From: a virus
DNA length: 22,277 nucleotides
Virus record (IMG/VR): IMGVR_UViG_3300009706_000068
Span: 1 to 22,277 of that record
Direction: 5' to 3' (one strand)
Shown here: positions 566 to 10,959 of the stretch, in pieces
How positions within the stretch are numbered: the stretch's first letter is position 1
Layout of the letters: every line of letters begins with the position of its first letter
The notes under the pieces: generated by a model
The model's database searches: none
Told to the model about the DNA's origin: nothing
The model's input: the letters and a program-made list of their open reading frames with translations, nothing else
Position numbers and translations under genes: made by a program

Positions 566-1759
566 CTATTTGGCAGCCTTTATCATTGCTGTCATTGCTT
601 GTATTTCTGGAAGTAATTTTGTTATCATTTTATAATTTTGCTGATTTCTTTTTTTCTTCCAGGGCGCATCTGAGAATTCATCGTAAACTGTGAAATGACT
701 CATAACCGCGTCAAATAATTCTTTTGTTGCTTTTTGTATTTCGTCACGTGCATCCATTGTAGCACCAGTGTCTTCCATTGTAGCACCAGTATCTTCCATT
801 AGCCAACCTGTACCGTGACATTGCTTACAATCATATTGTTTACCTGTTTCGCTATCAATATGCTTGCCTTTACCATCACAATGCTCACATTTTGTATAAT
901 ATTCGCCAGGGGACGGCTTGTTAGGAAGTAAGTCTTTCTGCCATTTATCTAACTTGGTTTCAGCTTCATCAAATTTTATTCCTGGCCAATCTGCTGAAGC
1001 ATTAGTAAACCCGAGTTGCTCATCATCGCTCATCTCGGCCCAACGCTCTCCCATAACCTTTTCAATTGTTGGTCTTGCATCGGCTTCGGGGCCTCCTTCT
1101 TGCTCTAACTCTATAAATGCATCTTCTAACTCATCATCACCAAAATAATCTTCGACTGCTTTTGATGCATGTTTTACTGGAATTGGTTTCTGCATAAGTT
1201 TATTCAATCCAGACATATCACTTGCAATGTGCCAAGTTCCCTCTTTTATTTTTTTTACATCAGTAAGTGCCTCTTTAAGTTTACCCATTGCTTTTTTAAT
1301 AGCTTTATCTTTACTATCTTTATATTCTTTTTCTGGGCTTTCGATTCTGCCATCGCCATCATAATCTTTATCAGATAATTTCTTTTCGGCAATTAACTCT
1401 TTCTGTAATTCTTTAGAAGCCTGTGCTAGGCTTTGTTCTGCATCAGTTAATTGAGCATTCATTTTTTCTATTTCTTGAACATCTACTGATTCTTTAGTAA
1501 CAGTTGGTTCTGTTTGAATGCCAAGATTCGGAATTCCAGCAAGTCGAATCATATCTTGTGAGGTAACTTGCTTGTTCCAATCATCTAAATTAGCAAAATT
1601 ATTATAAACATTATCACCTGTAGCTGAGGCAGTTGTGGACTGTGCTGAATTATATCCGCCTTGTGCGGGCATTGACTCAGCTGTTTTAATTGCGGCCTCT
1701 TGTTCTTCAGAAGGGTTTTCAATCTGTTTCATCTTCTCTAATACATTATACATATTCAT
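566..1759 (-). CDS. Hypothetical structural-region protein with EF-hand loop and DnaJ-like zinc motif
   Basis: This is a 397-aa acidic, mostly helical protein of unknown function. Residues 100-130 look like a coiled coil. Residues 132-143 form a textbook EF-hand calcium loop (D-x-D-x-D-G-x-I-x-x-x-E). Residues 291-298 and 311-318 are two CxxCxGxG motifs, as in the DnaJ zinc-binding domain, though only one pair rather than the four repeats of DnaJ and with no J domain. Just after this pair the 7-residue unit MEDTGAT occurs twice in tandem, encoded by a 21-bp DNA duplication. The start at 1759 has AAGGA about 8 nt upstream; a second Met at codon 3 is possible. It lies 11 nt after the upstream gene and 12 nt before the next, so they are probably co-transcribed. 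Calcium and zinc binding are inferred from motifs; a structural or head role is inferred from position. Confidence 0.8.
   Translation of the reverse strand: MNMYNVLEKMKQIENPSEEQEAAIKTAESMPAQGGYNSAQSTTASATGDNVYNNFANLDDWNKQVTSQDMIRLAGIPNLGIQTEPTVTKESVDVQEIEKMNAQLTDAEQSLAQASKELQKELIAEKKLSDKDYDGDGRIESPEKEYKDSKDKAIKKAMGKLKEALTDVKKIKEGTWHIASDMSGLNKLMQKPIPVKHASKAVEDYFGDDELEDAFIELEQEGGPEADARPTIEKVMGERWAEMSDDEQLGFTNASADWPGIKFDEAETKLDKWQKDLLPNKPSPGEYYTKCEHCDGKGKHIDSETGKQYDCKQCHGTGWLMEDTGATMEDTGATMDARDEIQKATKELFDAVMSHFTVYDEFSDAPWKKKRNQQNYKMITKLLPEIQAMTAMIKAAK
753..800 (-). repeat. 21-bp in-frame tandem duplication inside the EF-hand/zinc protein gene
   Basis: Two 21-bp units (753-773 and 774-794) differ at one base and are followed by the first six bases of a third. 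They encode the repeated heptapeptide MEDTGAT. The high identity suggests recent slippage or duplication. Confidence 0.85.
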
Positions 1760-1770
1760 AATAGTAATCC

Positions 1771-2397
1771 TTATCTATAATCATCAATTGATGCTTTAGG
1801 TGCAGGTATTTTATTTTTTGTACTACCTGCAGGGCTTTTATCGCCTAAAGAATCTGAATCGATATTATATACTACAGGGTCAGTCTTTCCGCCTGCAATT
1901 TCAAATTTTGCATCTCCGGGATTCTCGATATTTTTTTCTGGATTTGCATATTTGTCACTGGCTTCTTTTTGTTCTTTAGTAGGATCGCTGTATTCAGAAT
2001 TAAGAAGTGCGCCTGCGCCATCTTTACCTTCTTTTGATCCTTCTTCTTGAACTTTATCTTCAGCGACTTTCCAGCCTTCATCAAAAGTTTTATGCATAAT
2101 ACGAAAATGATTACCATCAATACCAAGAGATTTTGCAACTTCTTGTAATGCCTGTTGGCCTGCTGGATAAGCTGTTTCTATATCAAAAATATGTACATCT
2201 ACATTCTTAAGATGTGGGAAATCTAATGGACTTTCCGTAACTGGTGTTTTAATTGGATCAGACATTTTAAGTAAATCAAATTTGCTAAGGGCTGTTTCAA
2301 AAGCCTTAAGAGTGTCCGACTCTAGGTCACCAGCTATTTTGATTCTATACTCATATGTCTGAGTTGATTCTGTTAAATATTCTCTAAACGATTTCAT
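1771..2397 (-). CDS. Conserved T4-like structural protein with capsid-targeting-like N-terminus
   Basis: This 208-aa protein starts MKSFREYLTE, which resembles the capsid targeting sequence of T4 internal proteins (MKTYQEFI-x-E), including a (L/I)-x-E site (L8-T9-E10) of the kind cut by the gp21 prohead protease. Residues 15-105 look like a compact alpha/beta domain (YEYRIKIAGD... ending HFRIM). Residues 115-208 are charged, low-complexity and probably disordered. Proteins of this architecture occur in marine T4-like phages as unassigned virion components. The start is backed by GAGGAAAA about 8 nt upstream and an ATAAATA box at 2420-2426. I infer a protein packaged in or on the prohead; a non-head virion role remains possible. 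Confidence 0.8.
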   Translation of the reverse strand: MKSFREYLTESTQTYEYRIKIAGDLESDTLKAFETALSKFDLLKMSDPIKTPVTESPLDFPHLKNVDVHIFDIETAYPAGQQALQEVAKSLGIDGNHFRIMHKTFDEGWKVAEDKVQEEGSKEGKDGAGALLNSEYSDPTKEQKEASDKYANPEKNIENPGDAKFEIAGGKTDPVVYNIDSDSLGDKSPAGSTKNKIPAPKASIDDYR

Positions 2398-2419
2398 GTG
2401 TTTTCCTCACTTATGGCAG

Positions 2420-2427: not shown

Positions 2428-2949
2428 CTATTCTTCATCTTTTGGCATTTCTTTGCCAAGCAATTCTTTAAGTATTTCATTACGATCTAAAATATATCCT
2501 TGTCCAGTTGTTTCAAATTGTTCATCAATTGGTGTTGGAATTTTATCAATACGTGCTTTTTTAAGTTGTAGATCTATCATTTTAAGCTTCTTGTTTATCT
2601 TTGCTGTTTTTGCTGATATAGCATGTCCTAATAAATTACTAGCGACAGCAAAAATATCAGAGCTAAAACGACTATCAACGTTCATACCAAGATCCATAAG
2701 ATCTTTATACGATTCTTGTGCTAATTCAGCTAATTCATTTAATTCTGCGTCACTAGATTCTAAGCCCTTTACTAATGTTAAAGATTCTTCAATTTTAGCT
2801 AAATTAGTTAAAGTTTTTTGTGGGATTTCGGGTTCGGTTACAGGGATTATTGGTTCATTAAGGTCATTTTCTCCCTCAATTTCTGCGGGTTCTTTGAGGG
2901 TGTTCACCTTACTATCTAAATCAAATAGAGATTCTAATTTTTTGGTCAT
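2428..2949 (-). CDS. gp16: Terminase small subunit, gp16-like
   Basis: This 173-aa protein matches the layout of the T4 gp16 small terminase, the DNA-recognition and regulatory partner of the gp17 packaging motor. It has an acidic, proline-rich N-terminus (residues 1-45), then a long helical core (about 65-135) with the pattern found in gp16 of T4-like phages: a helix over LNELAELAQESYKDL, a turn, a helix with FAVASNLLGHAISAKTAKINK, and a basic heptad-like segment. A C-terminal tail follows. T4 gp16 is 164 aa, so the length fits. The large subunit gp17 is not next to it or elsewhere in this window, which departs from T4 order. There is no Shine-Dalgarno; a GTAAATA box lies 5 nt before the ATG. 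The assignment rests on pattern and length. Confidence 0.6.
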   Translation of the reverse strand: MTKKLESLFDLDSKVNTLKEPAEIEGENDLNEPIIPVTEPEIPQKTLTNLAKIEESLTLVKGLESSDAELNELAELAQESYKDLMDLGMNVDSRFSSDIFAVASNLLGHAISAKTAKINKKLKMIDLQLKKARIDKIPTPIDEQFETTGQGYILDRNEILKELLGKEMPKDEE

Positions 2950-2980: not shown

Positions 2981-3403
2981 TTATTTTCTAAAGATATCAT
3001 CTTCAGTTATTACTCTAAATATAATTTTTTGCTGTTGACACCATGCTCGAGCGGCTTGCCACTTAGCATGATTAAGAACTACGATTTGTTTAGTTCCTTG
3101 AGACGCCTTACTTTCCATAATACTTTGTTTTTTAGGTTTAATTTCTACCAATTCTGTAACAATCTTATTATGTTTAGTTTTATATTGTACTAAAAAATCT
3201 GGAATATAATTTCTTTGTTTACCAGTAAACGGGTGCTGATATGGAATTTTAACACATTCACTTGCCCATTTAATTACACTTGGGTGTTCATCACAAAATC
3301 TCATAAAAGCATGTTCCCAACCACTTCTATAAGTTGGTGGTGAATTTCCCATATACTTTGCTATATTTTTTATAGCAAATTTACCTTTATGATACTTAGC
3401 CAT
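2981..3403 (-). CDS. gp4: Head completion protein, gp4-like (TnsA/PD-(D/E)xK nuclease fold)
   Basis: This 140-aa protein corresponds to T4 gp4 (also called gp50), which finishes the DNA-filled head before the neck attaches. Visible family features are YRSGWE (residues 25-30) near the N-terminus, IPYQHPFTGKQRNYIPDF (53-70), and VEIKPKKQ (86-93). Together E30, D69 and E87-x-K89 make the acidic/lysine set of a TnsA-like PD-(D/E)xK nuclease; T4 gp4 has the same pattern (YRSLWE, VDI, VEIKPKSQ). The length is close to T4 gp4 (about 150 aa). It lies 10 nt downstream of the 120-aa gene and probably belongs to the gp19 transcription unit. The Shine-Dalgarno is weak. Confidence 0.8.
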   Translation of the reverse strand: MAKYHKGKFAIKNIAKYMGNSPPTYRSGWEHAFMRFCDEHPSVIKWASECVKIPYQHPFTGKQRNYIPDFLVQYKTKHNKIVTELVEIKPKKQSIMESKASQGTKQIVVLNHAKWQAARAWCQQQKIIFRVITEDDIFRK

Positions 3404-8958: not shown

Positions 8959-8988
8959 AATTAAAATCCTCTTTTGTATGTTTAATCA

Positions 8989-8995
8989 TATTTAT
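8989..8995 (-). promoter_or_regulatory. T4-type late promoter ATAAATA for gp18
   Basis: ATAAATA on the minus strand, 30 nt upstream of the gp18 ATG, with AGAGGAT as the ribosome site. It is back-to-back with the plus-strand late box at 9047-9053. Confidence 0.75.
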
Positions 8996-9046
8996 TACAA
9001 TATACCAAGAACTGGTGATTTAAACTGCCTTTGCAAAGGTTTAGTC

Positions 9047-9053
9047 ATAAATA
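9047..9053 (+). promoter_or_regulatory. T4-type late promoter ATAAATA, 5 nt from start codon
   Basis: An exact ATAAATA box on the plus strand ends 5 nt before the ATG at 9059. Transcription from a T4-type late box begins about 6 nt downstream, so the mRNA would begin at or within a base or two of the start codon. Confidence 0.6.
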
Positions 9054-9058
9054 CCTTA

Positions 9059-9406
9059 ATGAATAGACCGTTATGTCAGGTTTGCAATCGAAATTTGTGT
9101 GCAATAAACTACAAAAAGAATAATGTTTATCATTATAGGACCCGTTGTGGAACTTGTATTAACAGAAATAGAAATAAAAAGCCGCCAGTTCCTCGATGGC
9201 AAACTCAAGGATATAAAAAGAAAAATACTTGCGATCGATGTGGGTTCACCTCTCGCTATCATACCCAAATTTTAGTATATCATATCGACGGAAATTTAAA
9301 TAATACTACATTTCTTAATTTAAGATCTATATGTCTAAATTGTAGTATTACTATTCAACATCAGGAACGGCATTGGGAACCTGGTGATCTTCAACCAGAT
9401 TATTAA
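9059..9406 (+). CDS. HNH-like zinc-finger protein, probably degenerate as a nuclease
   Basis: This 115-aa protein carries four CxxC knuckles: C6/C9, C30/C33, C58/C61 and C92/C95. The last two enclose an HNH-like core: YHIDGNLNNTTFLNLRSICLNC (residues about 74-95), which keeps the HID, N and NL positions. The residue before H75 is Tyr instead of His/Asp, and the usual His after the last CxxC is Ser, so cleavage activity is doubtful; it may be a DNA-binding zinc protein. Similar proteins are common in T4-like cyanophages. I chose the ATG at 9059 rather than the upstream one at 8978 because the conserved region begins at MNRPLCQVC and the late promoter lies just before it. Its last 56 bp overlap the dNMP kinase gene on the other strand. 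Confidence 0.75.
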   Translation: MNRPLCQVCNRNLCAINYKKNNVYHYRTRCGTCINRNRNKKPPVPRWQTQGYKKKNTCDRCGFTSRYHTQILVYHIDGNLNNTTFLNLRSICLNCSITIQHQERHWEPGDLQPDY

Positions 9407-10569: not shown

Positions 10570-10959
10570 TTATTTTTTCTTTTTTGGTTTGCCTGGCTTA
10601 GACATCTTTCTAGGCTTTGATTTTGTTGGAACTCGCTTCTTTGGACCTTTACTTACTTTCAATCGCTGGTTTTTAAATTTATTCAATAACTTAAGAGTCC
10701 TTGAAGCTGGGTTAATTCTCTTGGTTTTTTTAGTTCTACGTGCTTGTTGAGTTTTAGTACGGGCTCTTGTTTTTTTCATTTTGGCAGATTTTTTCATATC
10801 TTTTGCTTGGCCACATGCGGCCGCTGTAGGAACAATTCGATTTTTTCTTGCGCCAGTTTCACATCGCCACTTCATTACAAGACTATTTCCTTTTCTACTC
10901 CAGACTATACCTTCTGGTAAATCTGTTTCTAAATCTCTGATAAACTCTATTGCTCTCAT
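10570..10959 (-). CDS. Small, extremely basic protein with conserved Cys/Arg N-terminal domain
   Basis: This 129-aa protein has two parts. Residues 1-54 form a short folded domain: MRAIEFIRDLE, then GNSLVMKWRCETGARKNRIV and a second Cys at 49 (AACG). This KWRC...G.RK.RIV pattern is shared with unassigned proteins of T4-like marine phages. Residues 55-129 contain no Asp or Glu and 34 Lys/Arg among 75 residues, ending in PKKKK, as in histone-like or protamine-like tails. Its ATG follows the gp13 stop codon with no gap (TAAATG), so it is translationally coupled to gp13 and made late. I infer nucleic-acid binding, perhaps a packaged or neck-associated DNA-binding protein. The function is not established. 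Confidence 0.8.
   Translation of the reverse strand: MRAIEFIRDLETDLPEGIVWSRKGNSLVMKWRCETGARKNRIVPTAAACGQAKDMKKSAKMKKTRARTKTQQARRTKKTKRINPASRTLKLLNKFKNQRLKVSKGPKKRVPTKSKPRKMSKPGKPKKKK

Follow-up and report, generated by a model that had tools for sequence, protein, structure and literature searches.

A probable capsid leader of the T4 type on a conserved protein from the head operon of a jumbo myovirus

The window analysed here is a complete IMG/VR record, a virus fragment of 22,277 bases. Its tail sheath is nearest to the sheaths of PA5oct, Atu_ph07, Phosso and Salicola phage SCTP-2, which places the window phage among the jumbo myoviruses of that broad group. On the minus strand, positions 1774-2397 encode a 208-amino-acid member of a leader-bearing virion-protein family, with an ATG start, a stop codon at 1771-1773 and, 6 nt upstream of the ATG, a gagga stretch that reads as a Shine-Dalgarno-like ribosome-binding site (2404-2408, minus strand). 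The protein starts MKSFREYLTESTQTYEYRIKIAG, its first residues being MKSFREYLTE-STQ. The leader, MKSFREYLTE (residues 1-10; 2368-2397), ends at a predicted prohead-protease cut between Glu10 and Ser11 (2368/2367). It is followed by a compact alpha/beta domain (residues 14-102; 2092-2358) and by an acidic, presumably flexible tail (residues 106-208; 1774-2082; pI 4.54).

Just upstream in the same operon, a gene at 2984-3403 (minus strand) encodes a head-closure, gp4-like protein of TnsA fold (phrog_218, E 3.2e-43; PF08722, E 6.1e-23). Between it and the leader gene lies a gene for a 173-amino-acid protein (2431-2949, minus strand; phrog_16202, E 4.6e-13) that is conserved in synteny, a protein of similar length standing at the same place in PA5oct, Vibrio 2.275.O, PHA46 and Munch. 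The order of sheath, tube, second tube, head closure, 160-185-amino-acid protein and leader protein is also found in PA5oct, PHA46 and Munch, and is kept, with insertions, in Phosso and Vibrio 2.275.O. The next gene (566-1759, minus strand; 397 amino acids) is matched by position only to PA5oct gp281, which is labelled structural. Its product contains a CxxCxGxG pair like that of the DnaJ central domain (PF00684, E 4e-4, below the cut-off).

Elsewhere in the window, a very basic, Lys/Arg-rich protein of 129 amino acids (10573-10959, minus strand; pI 11.76) starts MRAIEFIRD; its portion beginning at residue 29 is matched (E 5.8e-17) by a profile built from proteins that start MKASEFITEEE or MKAEEFMWEGE. 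The MRAIEFIRD start may be a second leader form in which Asp takes the cleavage position, and the protein is a candidate internal DNA-binding head protein. A Cys/His-rich ORF of 142 amino acids, HNH-like by eye, lies on the opposite strand (8978-9406, plus) between the sheath gene and a 217-amino-acid kinase-like ORF.

The leader-bearing protein belongs to a large family. A profile annotated as virion structural protein, phrog_14802, matches its N-terminal domain (residues 1-82, E 4.9e-6), and two scans returned 564 and 553 relatives, with the gene placed just after the gp4-like head-closure gene. Homologues in named phages were found in 15 records, and when a relative served as the query, four Salmonella phages and one Klebsiella phage were found in addition. 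The protein is conserved, syntenic, single-copy and acidic. In PA5oct, the homologue gp282 is annotated as a structural protein with an ESI-MS/MS label; as this label is also attached to enzymes such as ribonucleotide reductase, it may include carry-over and is by itself no proof of a structural role.

An AlphaFold2 model built with 52 aligned relatives has a mean pLDDT of 77.8. A helix is predicted at residues 4-10 (mean pLDDT 80 over residues 1-10), the domain at residues 14-102 reaches about 93-97, and the tail beyond residue 120 is mostly at 46-61, a short helix excepted. The best Foldseek match of the model was an S6 permutant (E 4.9e-4), while VIA gave Z scores of up to 7.8, and about 7 for S6 chains, which by the tool's own warning may reflect only a common arrangement. 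What the modelled domain has in common with ferredoxin-like folds, ribosomal protein S6 among them, is the arrangement only, and at Z scores below 8 no function could be read from the Foldseek and VIA matches. The best BFVD matches were unnamed or uncharacterised phage proteins.

The family alignments begin at residue 12, so that the leader had no influence on the choice of relatives, of which 80 of the 564 and 80 of the 553 were kept. A start was found in 159 of the 160 loci, giving 106 distinct proteins and 75 distinct first-30 stretches. The relatives fetched in this way have 79 distinct 45-base gene starts, and every one of them encodes L-x-E, with Leu written by five codons and Glu by both. 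Position 7 is more variable (Y, I, F and a few H or K), a handful of relatives have the leader shifted by one residue, and conservation continues past the leader through residues 12-22 into the first strand. Outside the 160-locus set, Glu10 is absent from PA5oct (MKSFRDYYDAS), Phosso (MKNFYEYLSSV), and PHA46 and Munch (both MNKLQTILTSL), where the cleavage-site triplets are YDA, LSS and LTS, respectively, and hydrophobic or aromatic residues are still present at positions 4 and 7. The L-T-E end of the window leader, which the first-pass annotation had called a good prohead protease site, thus has no counterpart with Glu in these four phages. Among cultured relatives, Vibrio phage 2.275.O (MKDLNTILTES) and Atu_ph07 (MKTLQDYLTES) do keep L-x-E. 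PA5oct, the only relative examined with a mass-spectrometry label on record, is among the four that lack Glu10.

MKSFREYLTE had been likened from the letters to the capsid leader of T4, a packaging signal known from textbooks, and the likeness holds: against MKTYQEFIAE, M1, K2, E6 and E10 are identical, and S/T3, F/Y4, Y/F7 and L/I8 are replaced like for like. The controls were the T4 genes ipII and ipIII, re-read from NC_000866, whose products begin alike with MKTYQEFIAEA. A T4-shaped pattern matched the T4 genome at four places (ipII, ipIII, the start of gene 61.1 with MKTFKEFIKE, and one site internal to gene 43), compared with none in the reversed control. Gene 61.1 (NC_000866 18966-19130, minus strand; L384:1467-1631) encodes 54 amino acids with a Lys/Glu-rich tail and has the internal-protein-leader-like start MKTFKEFIKED. 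According to the accessible text of a review of T4 head assembly (PMC9026906), T4 gp21 cuts after L/I-x-E; targeting of IPIII depends most on residues 4 and 7 and its processing most on residues 8 and 10, and Asp at position 10 stops processing but not targeting. Compared with that account, the window leader keeps all of positions 4, 7, 8 and 10. Read by the same T4 work, the proteins of PA5oct, Phosso, PHA46 and Munch, which retain positions 4 and 7 but have lost residue 10, would be targeted and left uncut.

Other proteins in the same loci bear the leader as well. Across the 160 loci chosen without use of the leader, the pattern M[KR]x1-3[EDQ][FY][LIVM]xE begins 40 of 740 distinct non-family ORFs, against one of the 740 when the last residue is other than E and none of 3873 internal Met positions. 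These 40 ORFs form two families, of about 120 amino acids (MRAREFIAE type) and about 210 amino acids (MKSLKEYIVE type), which are mutually unrelated by BLAST and are not found by the window-family profile. Using profiles that start after residue 11, the leader was present in 37 of 43 and 23 of 31 distinct N-termini of their respective homologues, and several of the leader-less homologues look like wrongly chosen starts. In 238 family loci, a set that includes loci picked by the strict pattern, a looser pattern begins 77 of 1934 other ORFs versus 12 of 10617 internal Met positions. In one locus, L034, seven leader-bearing genes stand on one strand in a row of head genes. The profiles phrog_17056 and phrog_28193 each match two leader proteins from different phage groups, L034:311-2654 (MRYYEFIRE, 408 amino acids) and L061:9320-11671 (MNPFLTYLTE, 783 amino acids).

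An all-against-all comparison of N-termini gave a clear shared leader only in record G009. Among the top pairs in PA5oct (409 ORFs), G015 (430) and G003 (144), no close unrelated leader partner was seen for the family start, because the neighbours have the shorter MRAxEF form or none; in G015 that form occurs by pattern at about 234156 and 234527. At L215:17662-18864, in record G009, three adjoining small proteins have a common start like MKIRMGFVSNSSSSSF. A second repeated N-terminus, MNFRQQLQEAYEAGYRSGLNEQ and variants, is found in L174 (record G001) on at least four different nearby proteins.

A scan of IMG/VR with the strict pattern MKxFxEYLxE returned at least 124 matches in at least 120 loci. 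Among the matches listed, 117 have at most 30 open codons upstream, and 118 are proteins of at least 45 amino acids, 73 from the window family and 45 from 32 other, unrelated clusters. Records G009, G012 and G001 carry the leader on runs of unrelated neighbours. A relaxed pattern was matched 42 times in 30 longer records, each of them chosen for a match, versus never for the reversed control. Pfam searches with the 32 cluster representatives identified Acb1 (E 2.8e-23), DUF6267, zeta toxin/AAA, DnaJ and HAD acid phosphatase, with others once each, and PHROGs added a cytidylyltransferase; PADLOC matched none of the 32 to a defence system. An integrase in L098 has in-frame ATGs upstream and so may be an internal match. 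At L117:2104-2571, an Acb1-type anti-CBASS protein (PF23474, E 2.8e-23) starts with MKTFREYLAE; if packaged, it would be at hand immediately on infection.

The DUF6267 proteins of cyanophages syn9, P-HM1 and S-PM2 have no leader, and among the genes read next to cyanophage DUF6267 genes it occurs only on syn9 gp184 (MKKFSAFLSE). In the accessible open-licence literature on capsid targeting sequences in connection with jumbo phages, cyanophages or marine phages, no report of the leader in the window's phage group was found; open-licence searches for the literal leader strings and for DUF6267 returned no papers.

In a genome-wide search for leader starts, a check that the first-pass annotation had proposed, no PA5oct ORF has the strict form. 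In four cultured relatives, the strict pattern gave two matches, both in Atu_ph07, one of which is the family gene. For PA5oct, the tightest loose expression matched two of 91 MS-labelled coding sequences versus none of 393 other ORFs (p 0.035), with two labelled sequences that cross 50-kb pieces omitted and two shortened; three other expressions were not significant (2/91 vs 4/393, 3/91 vs 6/393 and 11/91 vs 33/393). The enrichment for leader-like starts in the PA5oct proteome is therefore weak. Two PA5oct proteins labelled by ESI-MS/MS have leader-like starts, namely gp333 (MKINDIITE; L015:32921-33142), encoded between the portal and a head maturation protease, and gp246 (MKIKDILVE; L017:7529-7843).

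PF03420, the gp21-type protease, was found in four of eight family-bearing records and in six of 15 records overall, most of them fragments, and in none of the ten window ORFs that were scanned. In PA5oct, two genes are annotated as head maturation proteases.

It is very improbable that the leader is an ordinary amphipathic N-terminal helix that resembles the T4 leader by chance. Although the motif is short and has no clear second copy in PA5oct, the invariance of L-x-E among the distinct starts argues against coincidence, and a chance match was rejected because the scrambled-pattern, internal-Met and last-residue controls are all near zero. For instance, a scrambled pattern of equal composition, run over the whole of IMG/VR, gave 30 matches, only two of which begin ORFs of at least 45 amino acids. 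The wide pattern M[KR]x1-3[EDQNST][FYI][LIVM]xE begins, in the window, only the 208-amino-acid ORF among the 24 and none of 90 internal Met positions; in 11 sequence sets it begins 28 of 1447 ORFs versus two of 5726 internal Met positions, a start rate inflated by the choice of most sets for a leader or a relative. In an unlikely alternative, the N-terminal helix would have a lasting structural role, docking the protein on the portal, neck or inner shell of the head and never being removed, with L8 and E10 conserved for that interface. The cultured relatives without Glu10 still have the helix, conservation runs on into the first strand and the gene adjoins head-closure and tail-tube genes, all of which would fit. 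However, unrelated proteins in the same operon and elsewhere bear the same ten residues ending in hydrophobic-x-Glu, which an interface private to one fold does not explain. An address common to several structural proteins but leading elsewhere than the head interior, such as the tail, the baseplate or an infection-stage structure, would also account for the place of the gene, whose neighbours both here and in related phages are tail-tube and head genes. We consider this distinctly improbable, given that the leader agrees with the proven one of T4 in where it stands, how long it is and which residue types it has, and given the T4-type prohead protease in relatives.

The favoured reading, and a reasonably probable one judged from the sequence comparisons, makes MKSFREYLTE a capsid leader of the T4 type, borne by a conserved protein of the head operon and, in the window phage, probably removed by a cut after Glu10. 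The leader is conserved, keeps the residues critical in T4 and recurs on unrelated head-operon proteins, and PF03420 is encoded in relatives; the comparison therefore supports the capsid-targeting role first proposed. We infer the following course for head assembly. The short amphipathic leader helix would use residues such as Phe4 and Tyr7 to dock the protein on the scaffolding core, and the head shell would close round it. A gp21-type prohead protease would then cut after L-T-E and free residues 11-208 inside the head, while in lineages without Glu10 (PA5oct, Phosso and Munch) the protein would be targeted but stay uncut. Cleavage after Glu10 is likely in the window phage and not universal in the family.

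Injection with the DNA is only a guess, and it is somewhat unlikely that residues 11-208 enter the host, as had been suggested. A role in the head or core is as likely as delivery, since the protein is conserved, single-copy and acidic, unlike the variable accessory internal proteins of T4. Its acidity also counts against the favoured reading, given the lysine-DNA contacts described for T4 internal proteins in the accessible text of PMC3012670.

More tentatively, M-(K/R)-x1-3-(E/D/Q)-(F/Y)-(L/I/V)-x-E may be one peptide address marking the head-delivered proteome in a large class of T4-related and jumbo phages, most of them uncultured. This possible proteome would include conserved head-operon proteins and many unrelated enzymes, such as an Acb1-type anti-CBASS protein, a zeta-toxin-like kinase, HAD phosphatases, cytidylyltransferases, DUF6267 and a DnaJ protein. 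If true, N-termini alone would list the proteins that these phages bring into the cell at infection. A T4 leader on core jumbo head-operon proteins and on dozens of unrelated environmental phage proteins would make the motif a reader of head cargo.

Several known systems resemble the one described here. Homologues in the same gene neighbourhood (PA5oct gp282, Atu_ph07 gp113, Vibrio 2.275.O_386 and phrog_14802) are annotated only as structural or hypothetical, and that of PA5oct is without L-x-E. In the jumbo phages phiKZ and SPN3US, a gp21-like prohead protease matures head and ejection proteins after Glu; several SPN3US propeptides exceed 100 residues and the phiKZ motif is S/A-x-E (accessible text of PMC5694885 and PMC9026906). 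By these descriptions, their cut after Glu is like the one predicted for the window protein, but their propeptides and motif differ from its ten-residue leader ending in L-T-E. The N-terminal stretch of P1 DarB is sufficient to bring a protein into the phage head, more than nine and up to 30 residues being needed, and the accessible text of PMC9024508 reports no consensus among Dar proteins; the likeness is to the head-targeting role proposed for the window decapeptide, which is shorter. The likeness to T4 IPI-IPIII lies in the length of ten, the residue types at nearly every position and the (L/I)-x-E end, and in a leader that is all that several unrelated proteins have in common. The T4 proteins are variable accessory anti-restriction proteins, rich in Lys and in contact with DNA, whereas the window protein is a conserved, syntenic, single-copy head-operon product of pI 4.84, with an S6-like domain and an acidic tail.
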